Below the pieces are notes generated by a model, which was given only the letters and a program-made list of their open reading frames with translations, was not told the DNA's origin and did no database searches. The position numbers and the translations under genes were made by a program. This document shows, piece by piece, positions 2,966 to 54,049 of a DNA stretch of 58,171 nt (positions within the stretch are counted from its first letter, which is position 1; the number at the start of each line of letters is the position of its first letter). Source of the stretch: Terriglobia bacterium. Its GTDB lineage: Bacteria; Acidobacteriota; Terriglobia; Bryobacterales; Bryobacteraceae. The stretch covers positions 1 to 58,171 of the forward strand of contig JAIQFN010000038.1 of the NCBI GenBank assembly GCA_020073265.1, in the 5' to 3' direction.

Positions 2966-3026
2966 GGGTCGAATCGTAGCAGAGTGGGTGGAGCTGCCGC
3001 TCCGCGGCGGCGGACATCTTTCACGG

Positions 3027-3071
3027 CGTCCCCAGGAGTGGGGACGCGGCACGCACGAGTGCGTGCGCCAC
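3027..3071 (+). repeat. Family-1 paired-hairpin palindromic repeat, copy A
   Basis: Two adjacent hairpins. Hairpin 1 has an 8-bp stem whose 5' arm is CGTCCCCA, with loop GGAG. Hairpin 2 has a 7-bp stem (5' arm GCACGCA) with loop CGAG. The unit ends GCCAC. It lies between the divergent lipocalin-like and aldo/keto reductase genes. Related copies are at 4162, 15588, 18809, 50246 and 54001. Confidence 0.85.
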
Positions 3072-3087
3072 GGGTAGAATAGAGATC

Positions 3088-4161: not shown

Positions 4162-4207
4162 GCGTTCACACGAGTGTGAACGCGGCACGCAGGAGTGCGT
4201 GCGCCAC
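4162..4207 (+). repeat. Family-1 paired-hairpin palindromic repeat, copy B
   Basis: Hairpin 1 has a 9-bp stem with 5' arm GCGTTCACA and loop CGAG. Hairpin 2 has 5' arm GCACGCA and loop GGAG. The unit ends GCCAC. It fills the space between the convergent aldo/keto reductase and tannase genes, where it could also act as a bidirectional terminator or mRNA 3' end, though no T-run follows. Confidence 0.85.
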
Positions 4208-4208
4208 G

Positions 4209-10486: not shown

Positions 10487-10540
10487 GGCCGAGGCGGTCT
10501 CACTAGTTGTCGCCTAACGTCTTCGCTTTCCGCACAAGAC

Positions 10541-15587: not shown

Positions 15588-15633
15588 GCGTTCACACGAG
15601 TGTGAACGCGGCACGCAGGAGTGCGTGCGCCAC
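15588..15633 (+). repeat. Family-1 paired-hairpin palindromic repeat, copy C
   Basis: Nearly identical to copy B: hairpin 1 with 5' arm GCGTTCACA and loop CGAG, hairpin 2 with 5' arm GCACGCA and loop GGAG, ending GCCAC. It lies between the stop of the NHL gene and the start of the HPDLQGNW gene, both on the minus strand. Confidence 0.85.
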
Positions 15634-15637
15634 CTCG

Positions 15638-16759: not shown

Positions 16760-16796
16760 GGTGTTTTGCCTCCGACGATTGTTCATCTTATCAGGG

Positions 16797-18113
16797 ATGA
16801 TAGAGGATGTGACGTCACACCCGCCGTCTGTGCCGCCAGATCGGCCGGATCCCTTTCTGTCCGTGCATGCGGTGAACATTTTCGTGCGGGATCAGGATCG
16901 CAGCCTGCGGTTTTATCTGGATCAGCTTGGGTTCGCGCTGGCGTTCGACGCGCGGCTGCAATCGGGGGAGCGCTGGGTGGCGGTGTCGCCTCCCGACGGC
17001 AGCGCGGTGCTGGCGCTGGTGGCGCCCAAGCCGGAGTCGAGGGAATACCAGCTCATCGGCCGCGCCACGCAGATTGTTTTCGTCACCGAGAACGTGATCG
17101 CCAAGTACGACGAGTGGCGCAAGCGCGGGGTCCGGTTTCATCACACGCCGCGCTTGAGGCGGGTCAAGTATGAGCGGCCGGATGGAGTATCGGGCGATGA
17201 AACACCGGTCTGGGGCGGAGTCTTCACGCATTTCAGAGACGTGGATGGGAACTCGTTCGCGCTGGTGGGCTTCGACGAGGTGAGCCGCGAGGTGGAGGCG
17301 CAACGCCGCGCGGTGGCCGAAAAGCTGGAAGCGGAGCGCCGCGCGACGCAGGAGATCGAGATTGCGAAGCAGGTGCAGGCGCGGCTGTTTCCGCAGACCC
17401 TGCCCGCGCTCAACACTCTCGAATACGCCGGGATCTGCGTGCAGGCTCGCGCGGTGGGCGGAGATTACTACGATTATCTGAATCTGGGTCAGGAGCGGCT
17501 GGGGCTAGTGATCGGCGACATCGCCGGCAAGGGAATGGCGGCGGCGCTTTTGATGGCGAACCTGCAGGCCAATCTGCGAAGCCAGTGCGCCATCGCGGTG
17601 GATCAGCCCGAGCACTTCCTGCGATCGGTGAACCGGCTGTTCTTCGAGAATACGGCCGACAGCGCTTACGCCACGCTGTTCTTTGCCGAGTATGACGATC
17701 GCGAGCGGCGCCTGCGCTATGCCAACTGCGGGCATCTGCCGGCGCTGCTTTTGCGAGGCGACGGCACGCTGGAGCGGCTGGATTCGACAGGCACGGTGCT
17801 CGGAATATTCGCGGATTGGGATTGCTCGATCGGGGAGTGCCGGCTGGCTCCGGGCGACACGCTGGCGTTGTATACCGACGGAATCACGGAGGCGTTCAAC
17901 GAGCGGGGCGAGGAATTCGGCGAGCAGCGGCTGGTGGAGGCTTTGCGGCGGCATCGGGAACTGGCCCCGCCCGAATTGCTGCAGGCGATCGTGGGCGACG
18001 TGCAGTCGTTCAGCGCCTGTGAACAGTACGACGACATTACGCTGGTGGTGGCCCAATGCCGCGGGGATTCCGAAGAAATAAACGGGAAGAATTATGGCCT
18101 CTGGGACGTCTAA
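16797..18113 (+). CDS. VOC (glyoxalase-fold) domain fused to SpoIIE/RsbU-type PP2C phosphatase
   Basis: 438 residues from the ATG at 16797; the open frame to 16572 overlaps the opposite-strand gene. Residues about 20-155 are a VOC domain (HAVNIFVRDQDRSLRFYLDQ to THFRDVDGNSFALVGF); the usual metal-binding Glu near the end is Ala (NSFALV), which argues against a working glyoxalase. A short coiled coil (EVEAQRRAVAEKLEAERRAT) leads to a SpoIIE domain with KQVQARLFPQ, VGGDYYDY, GDIAGKGMAAAL, YTDGITEAF and YDDITLVV, so the metal-binding Asp residues are present. It probably senses a ligand and dephosphorylates a Ser/Thr-phosphorylated regulator. The last 20 bp overlap the ECF sigma gene. Confidence 0.85.
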   Translation: MIEDVTSHPPSVPPDRPDPFLSVHAVNIFVRDQDRSLRFYLDQLGFALAFDARLQSGERWVAVSPPDGSAVLALVAPKPESREYQLIGRATQIVFVTENVIAKYDEWRKRGVRFHHTPRLRRVKYERPDGVSGDETPVWGGVFTHFRDVDGNSFALVGFDEVSREVEAQRRAVAEKLEAERRATQEIEIAKQVQARLFPQTLPALNTLEYAGICVQARAVGGDYYDYLNLGQERLGLVIGDIAGKGMAAALLMANLQANLRSQCAIAVDQPEHFLRSVNRLFFENTADSAYATLFFAEYDDRERRLRYANCGHLPALLLRGDGTLERLDSTGTVLGIFADWDCSIGECRLAPGDTLALYTDGITEAFNERGEEFGEQRLVEALRRHRELAPPELLQAIVGDVQSFSACEQYDDITLVVAQCRGDSEEINGKNYGLWDV

Positions 18114-18696
18114 GGATTTTGGCATGGTGCTAGACGCCAACGACCGGGAAGTGATCGAGGCCTGCCAGCGCGGCGATTACGACGCGTTTCGGGTCCTGTT
18201 CGAAGCTCACAAGGACCGGGTGTACTCGATCGCGCTGCGCTACTCGGGCGACCCCAGCGAGGCCATGGACATCGCGCAGGAGACCTTTCTCAAGCTGCTC
18301 GGGTCGATCCAGGATTTTCGCGCCGATGCCAGTTTCGAATCGTGGCTGTACCGGATCGTGGTGAACCGGTGCCTGGATCACAAGCGGCGCGGGCGGCGGT
18401 GGATGCCGTTTCTGGATGGATTGCTGGACGCCGTGAGCGCGCCGGCGGAGAACGCGCTGCACCGGCTGCTGCGAGTCGAACAGGAGCAGAGCGTGCAGAG
18501 CATCGTCGGCAAGCTGCCGGCGGAGCAGCGCATCGTGGTGGTGCTGCGCTACACCGAGGGACTTTCTTACGACCAGATCGCGGAGATCGTGGGCTGCTCG
18601 CCGGGGACGGTGGCGTCGCGCTTGAATCGGGCGCATAAGGTTCTGGAGCGGCGGTTGTCGCACCTGCGTGGGGTGCTTGGGGGTTCGAATGGTTAA
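18094..18696 (+). CDS. ECF sigma factor (RpoE-like)
   Basis: 200 residues. Region 2 contains SEAMDIAQETFLKLL and ASFESWLYRIVVNRCLDHKR. Region 4 contains LSYDQIAEIVGCSPGTVASR followed by LNRAHKVLERRL, the DNA-binding HTH for the -35 element. GGGAAG lies just before the ATG at 18094; a second ATG at 18124 is possible. It starts inside the VOC-SpoIIE gene and its stop overlaps the next gene by 8 bp, so the three are one operon. The downstream membrane protein takes the place where an anti-sigma factor usually lies. Its target promoters are unknown. Confidence 0.9.
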   Translation: MASGTSKDFGMVLDANDREVIEACQRGDYDAFRVLFEAHKDRVYSIALRYSGDPSEAMDIAQETFLKLLGSIQDFRADASFESWLYRIVVNRCLDHKRRGRRWMPFLDGLLDAVSAPAENALHRLLRVEQEQSVQSIVGKLPAEQRIVVVLRYTEGLSYDQIAEIVGCSPGTVASRLNRAHKVLERRLSHLRGVLGGSNG

Positions 18697-19207
18697 GGCG
18701 GAGTTGAGGAAGACCGGGATCGAGGCGGTGTTGGAGCAGAGGCTGGCGCGCGTCTCGGCGCCGGAGGAGTTGTGGGATCGCGTGCGGTATCCGCGGGTGG
18801 AACGGCCAAGCGTTCACATGAGTGTGAACGCGGCACGCATGAGTGCGTGCGCCACGGTGGCGGCCGCGATCATGTTGCTGGTTTGGCACTTTCATACCGG
18901 CGGCGCGGCGGTTCAGTTTCGGTCCAGCGATCCGGGGATGGTTCGGGCCTGGGTCCAGGCCAACGCGGGCATCGATGTTCCGTTGCATTCCGGATACCTG
19001 GTGGGAGCCAACGTGAATCACGGGCGGGCTGAGATTGCGTACCGGGTGGGTGGCCGCGATCTGTCGCTGCTGGTTTCGAATTCCCGCGGCGCGAGTTTGA
19101 AAAACGGCGCTAACTTCGCATGGGCCGCCGGCGGACAGACATATATGTTGGCGTGCACCGCGCCCGAGGATTTGAAGGCTTGCGCGTTGTGTCATCTCGG
19201 CGGATAA
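18689..19207 (+). CDS. Putative membrane anti-sigma-like protein containing an in-frame palindromic repeat
   Basis: 172 residues. The N-terminal 40 residues are charged and end EELWDRVRYPRVERP. Residues 41-56 (SVHMSVNAARMSACAT) are exactly the translation of a family-1 repeat (18809-18856). One hydrophobic helix follows (VAAAIMLLVWHF), then a C-terminal outer domain with GHDLS-like GGRDLSLLVSNSRG, and an end CALCHLGG. Position after an ECF sigma gene and the cytoplasm-helix-outside layout suggest an anti-sigma factor, but the zinc-binding HxxxCxxC motif is absent. The CALCH motif could bind heme or metal. The start at 18689 matches the stop-start overlap. Confidence 0.65.
   Translation: MVKAELRKTGIEAVLEQRLARVSAPEELWDRVRYPRVERPSVHMSVNAARMSACATVAAAIMLLVWHFHTGGAAVQFRSSDPGMVRAWVQANAGIDVPLHSGYLVGANVNHGRAEIAYRVGGRDLSLLVSNSRGASLKNGANFAWAAGGQTYMLACTAPEDLKACALCHLGG
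18809..18856 (+). repeat. Family-1 paired-hairpin repeat inside a coding sequence, copy D
   Basis: 48 bp, 16 codons, in frame with the gene at 18689. Hairpin 1 has 5' arm GCGTTCACA and loop TGAG. Hairpin 2 has 5' arm GCACGCA and loop TGAG. Both loops differ from copies B and C by the same kind of change, while the stems are kept. Confidence 0.9.
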
Positions 19208-19367
19208 CGCCGTTTGGGGCGACCGAAAGCTGCGCTGGGTGATTTGCCCCAGCGTGTCGCTCTGAGGGATCTCAACCGTCGGGGAATTATATTAGCTTAT
19301 TTTGCAATGACTTGCGCACTATCGCCGGGTGGGTTAGCGCGTGGTCTGCCGATTGCTTCTAGTCCGT

Positions 19368-19394
19368 TTGGCGCGGCTAGAGCAGCGCTATACT
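19368..19394 (+). promoter_or_regulatory. Possible sigma-70 promoter of the ccm operon
   Basis: TATACT at 19389-19394 is a good -10 box. TTGGCG at 19368-19373 is a possible -35 box with a rather short 15-bp spacer. The start codon of ccmE is 20 bases downstream, with CAGGAGCG as ribosome binding site. The preceding 160 bases hold no gene. Confidence 0.45.
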
Positions 19395-19414
19395 AGTAGT
19401 TTCAGGAGCGAGCG

Positions 19415-19858
19415 ATGAAGACCTACGCGAAGTTCGGAGCTTTGGTTGCCGTGATCCTTGGAGTTCTGGCTTGGCTGACGCTGGGCGGCATCAGCGAGAG
19501 CAAGACGTATTTCAAGACCATCACGGAAGTCAAACAGATGGGCGACAAGGCTCAGACGCAGCGGCTGCGGGTGGACGGTTATGTCGTGCCCGGATCCATC
19601 GTGCGCAACGGCGCGGAAGTTTCCTTCATCATGCACCAAAACCCGGCCATGCGGGCGGCGGACACCGTCCGGATGAAAGTTGTATACCGGGGCATCGATC
19701 CTCTTCCGGATACTTTCAAGGATGACGCGCAGGCCATGGCGGATGGCAAGCTGGGAGCGGACGGTACTTTTCAAGCCAGCAAAATCCAGGCCAAGTGCGC
19801 GTCGAAGTACGAAGCCAAGCCACAAATGAAGACGGACGCGAACCGAGCCGGCATGTAG
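19415..19858 (+). CDS. ccmE: Cytochrome c maturation protein CcmE, CxxxY type
   Basis: 147 residues. An N-terminal membrane anchor (FGALVAVILGVLAWLTLGG) is followed by an OB-fold domain with RLRVDGYVVPGSIVRNG and VVYRGIDPLPDTF. CcmE is the periplasmic heme chaperone that carries heme from CcmC to CcmF. In the usual form a His in an HxxxY motif binds heme covalently; here the matching motif is AKCASKYEA, with Cys128 and Tyr132, so this is the rarer CxxxY variant. The neighbours ccmF and ccmH support the assignment. It is the first gene of the operon. Confidence 0.9.
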   Translation: MKTYAKFGALVAVILGVLAWLTLGGISESKTYFKTITEVKQMGDKAQTQRLRVDGYVVPGSIVRNGAEVSFIMHQNPAMRAADTVRMKVVYRGIDPLPDTFKDDAQAMADGKLGADGTFQASKIQAKCASKYEAKPQMKTDANRAGM

Positions 19859-19894
19859 CTGCTCCCGCCGTCCGTTCTTGAGGATTAAACTCGA

Positions 19895-21910
19895 ATGGAA
19901 AATATCGGCGCGTTGTCGATTCTGCTGGCGTTTTGTCTGGCCGTTTATGCCGTCATCGGCTCGGTGATCGGCAAGCTCAAGAAAAACCCCTTCCTGGTAG
20001 TCAGCGGCGAGCGGGCGGTTTACTCAGTCTGGATTCTGCTGAGTGTCGCCTCCGGCCTGCTGATCTATTCCCTCATCACCGGCGACTTCCGGCTGGCGTA
20101 CGTAGCCGCGCACAGCGATCAGACCATGCCGGCGATCTACAAGTTCACGGCGTGGTGGGGCGGGCAAGAGGGATCGCTGCTGCTATGGGCCTGGCTGCTG
20201 GCGACCTATTCGGCCGTGGTGGTGTTCACCAACCGCAAGAAGTTCCGCGACATGATGCCGTGGGTCACGGCGGTCCTGATGACCACGCTGACTTTCTTCC
20301 TGATCCTGATCGCTTTCGTGCTGAGCCCCTTCGGAGTGCTGGAAGCCGGGCGTGGCAACATCGTGGAAGGCATGGGCCGCGGGCTGAACCCGCTGCTGCA
20401 GTACTGGACGATGGTGATCCATCCGCCGATGCTGTACCTGGGTTACGTCGGCTTCACCGTGCCGTTCGCGTTCGCGATGGGATCGCTGATCACCAGGCAG
20501 CCGGGCGAGGCCTGGATTCACACCACGCGGCGCTGGACCATCGTGACCTGGCTGTTCCAGAGCACCGGAATCCTGCTGGGGCAAGGCTGGGCGTACGCGG
20601 TGCTGGGCTGGGGCGGATATTGGGCCTGGGATCCGGTGGAGAACGCGTCGCTGCTGCCCTGGATCACGGCCACGGCGTTTCTGCACTCGGTGATGATGCA
20701 GGAAAAGAAGGGCATGATGAAGGTGTGGAACATGGTCCTGATTTCGGGGACCTTTTTCCTGTGCATCTTCGGGACGTTCCTGACGCGCTCGGGCGTGGTG
20801 AGCTCGGTGCACGCTTTCGCGCAGTCGCCCATCGGCAAATATTTCGTGTACTTCCTGGCGATCGGAATCGCGGCGACGCTGTACATGATTCTGGATCGCA
20901 TGAAATATCTGAAGAGCGAGGCGCGCCTGGAGAGCGTGGTGTCGCGTGAATCCAGCTTCATGTTCAACAACCTGATCCTGGTGGCGAGCTGCTTCGCGGT
21001 GCTGTGGGGCACGTTGTTCCCGGTGATTTCGGAAGCGGTGACGGGCGAAAAAATCAGCGTGGACGCGCCCTTTTTCAACCGCATCAACATTCCCATCGGG
21101 CTGGGGCTGATGCTGCTGACGGGCGTGGGGCCGCTGATCGCCTGGCGGCGCAGCTCGGTGGAGAGCCTGAAGCGCGCGTTCTTCTGGCCATCGATCGCGG
21201 CGCTGGTGTTGATGGCGGCGCTGGCGGTGTTTGGAGTGTACGAGCATCCCTACGCGCTGGTGTCGTTCGGGCTGTGCATGTTCGTGACAGCTACCATCTC
21301 TTCGGAATTCTGGAAGGGATCGAAAGCCATCAGCGCGAAAAGCGGCGTGGGCCTGATCCCGTCGGCCATCGAGCTGACGCATCGCAACACGCGGCGCTAC
21401 GGCGGGTACCTGGTGCACATGGGCATCGTGTTCATGTTCATCGGCTACACCGGCGCGGCTTTCAACCAGGACGTGACCAAAGAGGTTGCGCCCGGAGGCA
21501 GCTTCCAGTTGGGACATTACAATCTGAAAGTCACCAACATGCAGCAGGGCGAGAACGACAACTACACTTGGCAGAAGCTGTCGGTGGAAGCTTCGCGGGG
21601 ATCGCAGACCATCGGCACGCTGGAACCGGCCAAGCGCTTTTACAAATCCAGCCAGCAGCCGACGTCGGAAGTTGCCATCCGGCGGCGGCTCAACGAAGAC
21701 CTGTATCTGAACTTCGCGGGCGTTTCGAACGACAACCAGCGCGCCGTGATTCAGGCCTATGTCTTTCCGCTGGTTTCGTGGGTCTGGATCGGCTACTGGG
21801 TGCTGGCGATCGGCACGCTGGTGTGTCTGATCCCGAGCAAGGTGCGTCTGTCGTACGCGCGAACACAGGTACTTGGAGTTGCAGAGAAACATGCGAAGGT
21901 TACGAAATAG
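19895..21910 (+). CDS. ccmF: Heme lyase subunit CcmF
   Basis: 671 residues with about 14 hydrophobic helices. Key motifs are AWWGGQEGSLLLWAWLL near residue 87 and the heme-handling WAWDPVENASLLPW near 243 (WWD-type domain). His-bearing loops include MVIHPPMLYLGYVG and RRYGGYLVHMGIVFMF. CcmF attaches heme from CcmE to CxxCH motifs of apocytochromes on the outer face of the inner membrane. It follows ccmE by 36 bp and its 3' end overlaps ccmH by 20 bp. Confidence 0.92.
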   Translation: MENIGALSILLAFCLAVYAVIGSVIGKLKKNPFLVVSGERAVYSVWILLSVASGLLIYSLITGDFRLAYVAAHSDQTMPAIYKFTAWWGGQEGSLLLWAWLLATYSAVVVFTNRKKFRDMMPWVTAVLMTTLTFFLILIAFVLSPFGVLEAGRGNIVEGMGRGLNPLLQYWTMVIHPPMLYLGYVGFTVPFAFAMGSLITRQPGEAWIHTTRRWTIVTWLFQSTGILLGQGWAYAVLGWGGYWAWDPVENASLLPWITATAFLHSVMMQEKKGMMKVWNMVLISGTFFLCIFGTFLTRSGVVSSVHAFAQSPIGKYFVYFLAIGIAATLYMILDRMKYLKSEARLESVVSRESSFMFNNLILVASCFAVLWGTLFPVISEAVTGEKISVDAPFFNRINIPIGLGLMLLTGVGPLIAWRRSSVESLKRAFFWPSIAALVLMAALAVFGVYEHPYALVSFGLCMFVTATISSEFWKGSKAISAKSGVGLIPSAIELTHRNTRRYGGYLVHMGIVFMFIGYTGAAFNQDVTKEVAPGGSFQLGHYNLKVTNMQQGENDNYTWQKLSVEASRGSQTIGTLEPAKRFYKSSQQPTSEVAIRRRLNEDLYLNFAGVSNDNQRAVIQAYVFPLVSWVWIGYWVLAIGTLVCLIPSKVRLSYARTQVLGVAEKHAKVTK

Positions 21911-53935: not shown

Positions 53936-54000
53936 GCGGGCAAGGCTGTCCAAGCTCATGATCGGCCAAAAGTTAGGAAGGCTTTAGGGCGCCTGGATTG

Positions 54001-54044
54001 CCTCCCCAGGAGTGGGGACGCGGCACGCACGAGAGCGTGCGCCA
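54001..54044 (+). repeat. Family-1 paired-hairpin palindromic repeat, copy E
   Basis: Hairpin 1 is of the copy-A type with stem arms TCCCCA/TGGGGA and loop GGAG. Hairpin 2 has a 6-bp stem (GCACGC/GCGTGC) because of one base change. It lies between the heptose-kinase and SRPBCC genes, 60 bp from the start of the former. Confidence 0.8.
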
Positions 54045-54049
54045 GCGGT

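Follow-up and report, generated by a model that had tools for sequence, protein, structure and literature searches.

The window, by which we mean the whole analysed stretch of 58,171 nucleotides of a Terriglobia bacterium (contig JAIQFN010000038.1), carries on its forward strand a gene for an ECF sigma factor (18094-18696; Sigma70_r2 1.8e-22, Sigma70_r4_2 3.3e-17), a second gene that overlaps it and encodes a presumed anti-sigma protein with one hydrophobic helix and a C-terminal CxxCH (18689-19207; delineated by open reading frame, alignment and hydropathy, and belonging to no known family), and as neighbours the genes for CcmE (19415-19858; CcmE 4.6e-24) and CcmF (19895-21910; CcmF_C 3.9e-64). 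The second gene, hereafter the host gene, starts with an ATG at 18689 and the stop codon of the sigma factor gene ends at 18696, an overlap of 8 nt which, together with the two sigma factor domain matches, agrees with the original prediction of a gene next to an ECF sigma factor. That the product is an anti-sigma protein, as was also proposed, is in line with the overlap and with the helix found by hydropathy, but the protein matched no known anti-sigma family, having neither a Pfam match above the curated cut-off nor an NCBIfam match; position and topology thus suggest an anti-sigma factor. The order of sigma factor gene and host gene is kept in six of six genomes, and the CxxCH at the C-terminal end is invariant in the six aligned sequences. 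As a fold model of the protein has a mean pLDDT of only 62, with residues 35-55 below 50, and yielded no PDB match at E <= 0.001, the assignment of the membrane helix is based mainly on hydropathy.

Within the host gene lies a block of 48 nt (18809-18856, plus strand; SVHMSVNAARMSACAT), which forms 16 in-frame codons, residues 41-56 counted from the ATG at 18689, and encloses a 47-nt palindromic element at 18810-18856. The element scores 76.2 bits against a covariance model of its repeat family, family 1, from whose training copies the window copy was absent. RNA folding gives two hairpins, the first at 18810-18831 with a 9-bp stem and the loop TGAG, the second at 18832-18852 with a stem of 7-8 bp, a bulged G and again the loop TGAG. 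On the minus strand the 3' end of the element reads GTGGCG (18850-18855), the GTGG foot of RAYT-associated REPs as defined in PMC6006769. The window copy is a singlet and not half of an inverted doublet. Four further copies lie on the plus strand of the window, at 3026-3072, at 4162-4208, at 15588-15634 just past the 3' end of a minus-strand NHL-repeat gene, and, in diverged form, at 54000-54046. A pattern for the second hairpin, allowing up to three mismatches, matched 82 + 86 = 168 times in the window's own genome and the reversed pattern, used as control, not once; coordinates, frame, score and match counts are therefore all in accord with the prediction of 16 codons of repeat at residues 41-56.

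What kind of repeat is this? Copies from the window and from 98 fetched loci gave 105 distinct sequences out of the 168 pattern matches, and their consensus opens with GCGT and a stem of variable sequence whose loop is in most cases NGAG, and continues with the mirrored half of that stem, ACGC, GGC, a second stem-loop and a terminal GCGCCAC. For the covariance model 36 distinct copies were picked from 60 with a paired first stem. Among these 36 dispersed copies five pairs of stem 1 change on both sides, giving 55 double-change cells, a number reached in 0 of 500 shuffles. In stem 2 97.2% of the cells are paired and no double change was found among the same copies, partly because the search pattern had fixed this stem. 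Similarly, the 3' end GCCAC is at least 90% conserved in the 36 copies, a value to be read in view of the fact that the pattern itself required GCCAC within its three permitted mismatches. The reverse complement of the element starts with GTGGCGC and thus carries the GTAG/GTGG foot; copies are numerous and dispersed, in the 168 pattern matches as well as in covariance matches in related genomes; and inverted doublets, as in REPINs, occur as head-to-head pairs, for example at L005 and L031, and inside the orthologous gene of one relative (G003). A second repeat family (GCAGGCAGGATTGCCTGCCCCAC), which likewise begins with GTGG when reverse-complemented, is found in the window at 10540, 12581, 28042 and 47467 and on both sides of the genome's RAYT-like gene L062.

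Evidence for a link of family 1 to RAYTs comes from related genomes. Among 30 Y1_Tnp loci scanned for the element, six contained matches above 30 bits: strong matches flank the Y1_Tnp gene on both sides at L174 (G002) and L172 (G001), at L167 (G002) and L170 (G037) one flank has a full match and the opposite flank a partial match, and weaker matches of 32-39 bits occur at L156 and L168. G001 and G002 belong to the genus of the window's genome (G000) and G037 to another family. The proteins of the four flanked loci fit best to the NCBIfam model for REP-associated tyrosine transposases, with 75.7-79.9 bits just under the cut-off of 80. By its foot, the covariation of stem 1 and the flanking of RAYTs in relatives the element is of the REP type. 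At two of these loci (L174, 1345-1989, and L172, 1381-2085, both minus strand) the 3' REP forms an in-frame tail of the RAYT open reading frame, and the reading frame of the tail at L174 is the one used in the host gene. The genome of the window itself has three Y1_Tnp loci, and a copy of family 1 lies within about 1.5 kb of none of them. One of them, L062, was considered as the partner and rejected because the adjoining repeats belong to the second family, with weak matches to family 1 of 24.6 and 25.2 bits. Since none of the three genes adjoins family 1, the partner transposase may have been lost from this genome or may fall into an assembly gap.

Running the covariance model with strict filters on 41 genomes revealed family 1 in 14 of them, with at least 150 matches each in G000, G001 and G002, 131 in G003 and 27 in G004, as well as 146 in a genome of another genus (G024; up to 77.1 bits) and 51 in G037. 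With the same model and filters the family was missing from 14 of the 19 genomes G005-G023. Such a patchy distribution would be explained by horizontal spread of the family with its RAYT or, alternatively, by repeated loss.

Is the window copy really read as protein? Counting codons inside the element, no stop interrupts four of the six frames in 102 or more of the 105 copies, and the frame used in the host gene is open in all 105, so that the earlier observation of this frame being open in two other copies of the window holds widely. The two TGAG loops that had been pointed out are likewise there, TGAG being found in loop 1 of 17, in loop 2 of 13 and in both loops of two of the 105 copies, which makes the double TGAG rare yet not unique. 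A codon-usage screen, trained on mechanically chosen open reading frames, placed one of the 105 copies inside an open reading frame at a strict threshold, namely that at L069 and not the window copy, and five at a loose threshold, the window copy included; the other four look to us like open reading frames antisense to, or ending at, real genes. As the strict filter did not pick the window copy as coding on both sides, the coding case is founded on orthologues: the N-terminal motif and the C-terminal domain are both present in element-free orthologues, for which reason the copy was accepted as intragenic. Both parts are common to six of six aligned sequences, making the host a real gene, as the original idea of a palindromic mobile repeat captured in frame demands.

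When 61 genomes, among them that of the window, were searched at the protein level, five besides the window's own proved to have full-length relatives of the host protein (G001, G002, G003, G004 and G028). The matching records are the metagenome-assembled genomes palsa_143, palsa_89, COA_Bin_11_1 and palsa_144 (Bryobacterales/Bryobacteraceae) and one titled Bordetella parapertussis (locus L184, CALQCC020000001.1), which resembles the Bryobacterales records here and is probably misnamed. In G001 and G002 the position, strand and reading frame of the element agree with those in the window gene. The gene of G003 contains an inverted pair of elements (31.8 and 23.5 bits), the first of which has the strand and 3' frame of the window copy and is one base shorter. 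No element was found in the orthologues of G004 and G028, and the best unfiltered match of the covariance model in G004, at 7.0 bits, falls away from the site. The expectation that most orthologues would lack the block was thus not borne out, as two of the five carry it, a third carries the pair and two lack it. In FastTree trees of the ECF sigma factor and the host C-terminal domain from six sequences, the carriers are separated from G004 and G028 with a support of 0.96, and of 0.94 for the sigma factor alone. The C-terminal domain alone joins G003 with G028 (0.61) and leaves the grouping of the carriers unsupported, and in a CcmF tree, which does not include G004, the order of the carriers differs. 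The simplest and most likely account would be one capture before the carriers split, to be weighed against the fact that the tree is built from one ECF protein and one short domain of six sequences.

How does the block affect the length of the protein? Measured from a conserved tryptophan, the best hydrophobic 19-mer begins after 19 residues in both G000 and G001 and after 20 in G002, after 18 and 17 residues in the element-free proteins of G004 and G028, and after 40 in G003 with its inverted pair. A simple addition of 16 residues, as originally proposed, is at variance with these spacings, the element-free proteins being about as long in this region, and in the three carriers the block appears to stand for native residues. 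Its last codons (AARMSACAT in G000) fall inside the predicted helix. Native residues may have been deleted on insertion, or a longer pair may have been shortened afterwards. Rickettsia palindromic elements are defined as in-frame palindromes that add residues to a protein; the element in G000-G002 is in frame and brings no gain in length.

The history of the block is best seen in the comparison of G001 with G002. Outside the element region the two genes differ by 12 synonymous codons and one nonsynonymous codon, by which the host gene is evidently under constraint, whereas linker, element and the eight following codons show five synonymous and eight nonsynonymous codons (Fisher p = 0.011). Counting gap columns, the element region has 22 differences in 91 columns and the rest 14 in 436 (p = 8.5e-10). 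Within the 5,582 columns of the alignment (5.6 kb) differences are most crowded, at 17 in 60 columns, at the element and its flanks, although most stem pairs are intact. The flanks differ more than the element itself, in 11 of 24 and 5 of 20 positions versus 6 of 47. As a control, an intergenic copy some 2 kb from there, which is syntenic in both genomes, has two element differences. Ten further G001 copies were used as queries and seven were aligned to their best G002 match: two have identical elements and one flank difference each, one has four differences and lies at a contig end, three are apparently without an element in G002, and one was unalignable. Comparable intergenic copies thus show 0, 0, 2 or 4 changes or are absent; the three that are not cut by a contig end have near-identical flanks, and the in-gene copy with its flanks has changed more than they have. 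Identical residues with normal codon divergence had been named as the pattern that would speak against a capture; the shared residues are indeed found, but G001 and G002 diverge more strongly in this region, with some of the changes matched on the opposite arm of the stem.

These data could also come from a hotspot, that is, from separate insertions or replacements in G000, G001, G002 and G003, with the shared presence reflecting recurrence and not descent. The cluster of differences would fit, as would the fact that the copies of G001 and G002 are of different stem subtypes in unusually diverged surroundings: the hairpin-2 subtype of G001 is found in 11 other G001 and 11 G002 copies, and the stem subtype of G002 recurs once, at an unrelated G001 site, so that the block may have been replaced from another copy. 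Turnover, moreover, seems quick, since three other G001 copies appear to have no G002 counterpart. Against recurrence, all four genomes share the strand, G000-G002 share the frame, and G003 agrees with them in frame at the 3' end; the flanks of G000, G001 and G002 can still be aligned; and loop 2 has retained a T as its first base in G000, G001 and G002 and, according to one of two alignments, in G003 as well, although TGAG occupies this loop in only 13 of the 105 dispersed G000 copies. On balance we regard recurrent insertion as doubtful.

A further proposal is that selection keeps the hairpins for a control function, exerted by RNA or DNA inside the coding sequence, which would set for example the ratio of sigma factor to partner. 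Six of 17 pairs are changed on both sides in the four in-gene copies, a number reached in 0 of 500 shuffles, and the RNA fold z is -4.0 for G000, -6.2 for G003, -2.1 for G002 and -1.8 for G001, versus +0.5 for the 67-nt stretch of the element-free G004 gene that ends at the helix start. The four rows are few, however, hairpin 1 is interrupted by one unpaired position in G001 and hairpin 2 by several in G003, and, as the dispersed copies covary as well, covariation is a trait of the family. Selection as a control element is accordingly unlikely. An extended version would have the palindrome at work in both layers of the gene, its codons starting the helix of the partner of a sigma factor and its hairpins being kept by paired changes, either as a transcript control element or as a still mobile unit turning over in coding sequence; this we likewise hold to be improbable. 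Paired changes could also be produced by template switching within a hairpin, a known type of mutation. That the block resembles the repeat by chance, or is no repeat at all but a peptide motif typical of these proteins, can practically be dismissed: VHxSVxAA..ACAT is indeed common to G000, G001 and G002, yet the 168 matches stand against none in the control, the block is absent in G004 and G028, and the changes track base pairing and alter residues, including R to G and M to V.

It is therefore probable that a REP copy spread by a RAYT was captured inside the gene in the common ancestor of the carriers, was tolerated, and has been inherited while changing. By this capture a REP copy or an inverted pair would have entered a gene whose product crosses the membrane once and is the partner of an ECF sigma factor, in an ancestor of at least four related species. 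Its toleration, possibly neutral for the protein, might be due to the element frame being open on that strand and to the site being a linker just before the membrane helix, and the last codons of the block would supply the first residues of the helix, replacing native ones and not adding to them. Inheritance after the capture would have been accompanied by ongoing change, with the stems changing in pairs, the flanks changing fast and one lineage coming to hold two inverted copies.

REPs in protein genes are not new as such. According to PMC3733652, REPs occur within open reading frames of several species, among them Opitutus terrae, Thauera and the recB gene of Xanthomonas, where two species have different REPs at about the same site, and it was suggested there that intragenic inserts may sit in flexible linkers. 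The present case shares with these the location inside open reading frames, in the recB example also the use of about one site by two species, and differs by its four species, one inverted pair, two element-free outgroups, absence of a length gain in three carriers and the adjoining membrane helix. With the REPs of the GTAG/GTGG type and their RAYTs (REPtrons, REPINs) the family has in common the foot, the imperfect palindrome, the many copies, the inverted pairs, of which doublets are described in PMC3116915, and the RAYT flanking in relatives, whereas its unit consists of two hairpins in 47 nt and no RAYT was found beside family 1 in its own genome. Acidobacteria also harbor Class 3 TnpA_Y1 elements (Solibacter and others), which resemble it in their many hairpin copies, about 600 in Solibacter usitatus, and which are reported in PMC6006769 with the foot CnGA and a Y----Q motif, as opposed to GTGG and RAYTs with YIxxNP here. 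PMC3174227 reports many short repeats in Solibacter, and the present element is not named in the part of it consulted. The likeness to Rickettsia palindromic elements that had been drawn holds for the behavior, the in-frame uptake of a palindromic repeat by a protein gene, but the repeat and the host phylum are different and few copies appear to lie within genes here, and closer published relatives are the REPs within open reading frames of various bacteria (PMC3733652). In the literature searched, outside of which many journals lie, no earlier report of an intragenic REP from Acidobacteria was found. The kind of element and the kind of event are thus already known, intragenic REPs having been published from other phyla (PMC3733652), and what is new is this case with its unusual persistence and comparative depth.

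As carriers, a carrier of an inverted pair and element-free outgroups share one site, the gene offers a comparative case in which entry and persistence of a REP in coding DNA can be tested. In addition, the paired stem changes make it possible to test selection against template switching in hairpins and against replacement from other copies.

The neighborhood of the host gene is itself conserved, as the order ECF sigma factor, CxxCH membrane protein, CcmE and CcmF is kept in G000-G003 and G028 (window 18094-21910; L186, L187, L188, L190), while in G004 the ECF sigma factor gene and the membrane protein gene alone were found together within the 12 kb read. Among the ten titles listed for sigma factors with CcmE, none reported this gene order. 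Because the CxxCH, a possible c-haem site, lies beside genes for haem delivery, the protein might putatively report on cytochrome c maturation. Upstream, at 16794-18110, a single open reading frame fuses a glyoxalase-like domain to a SpoIIE phosphatase domain.
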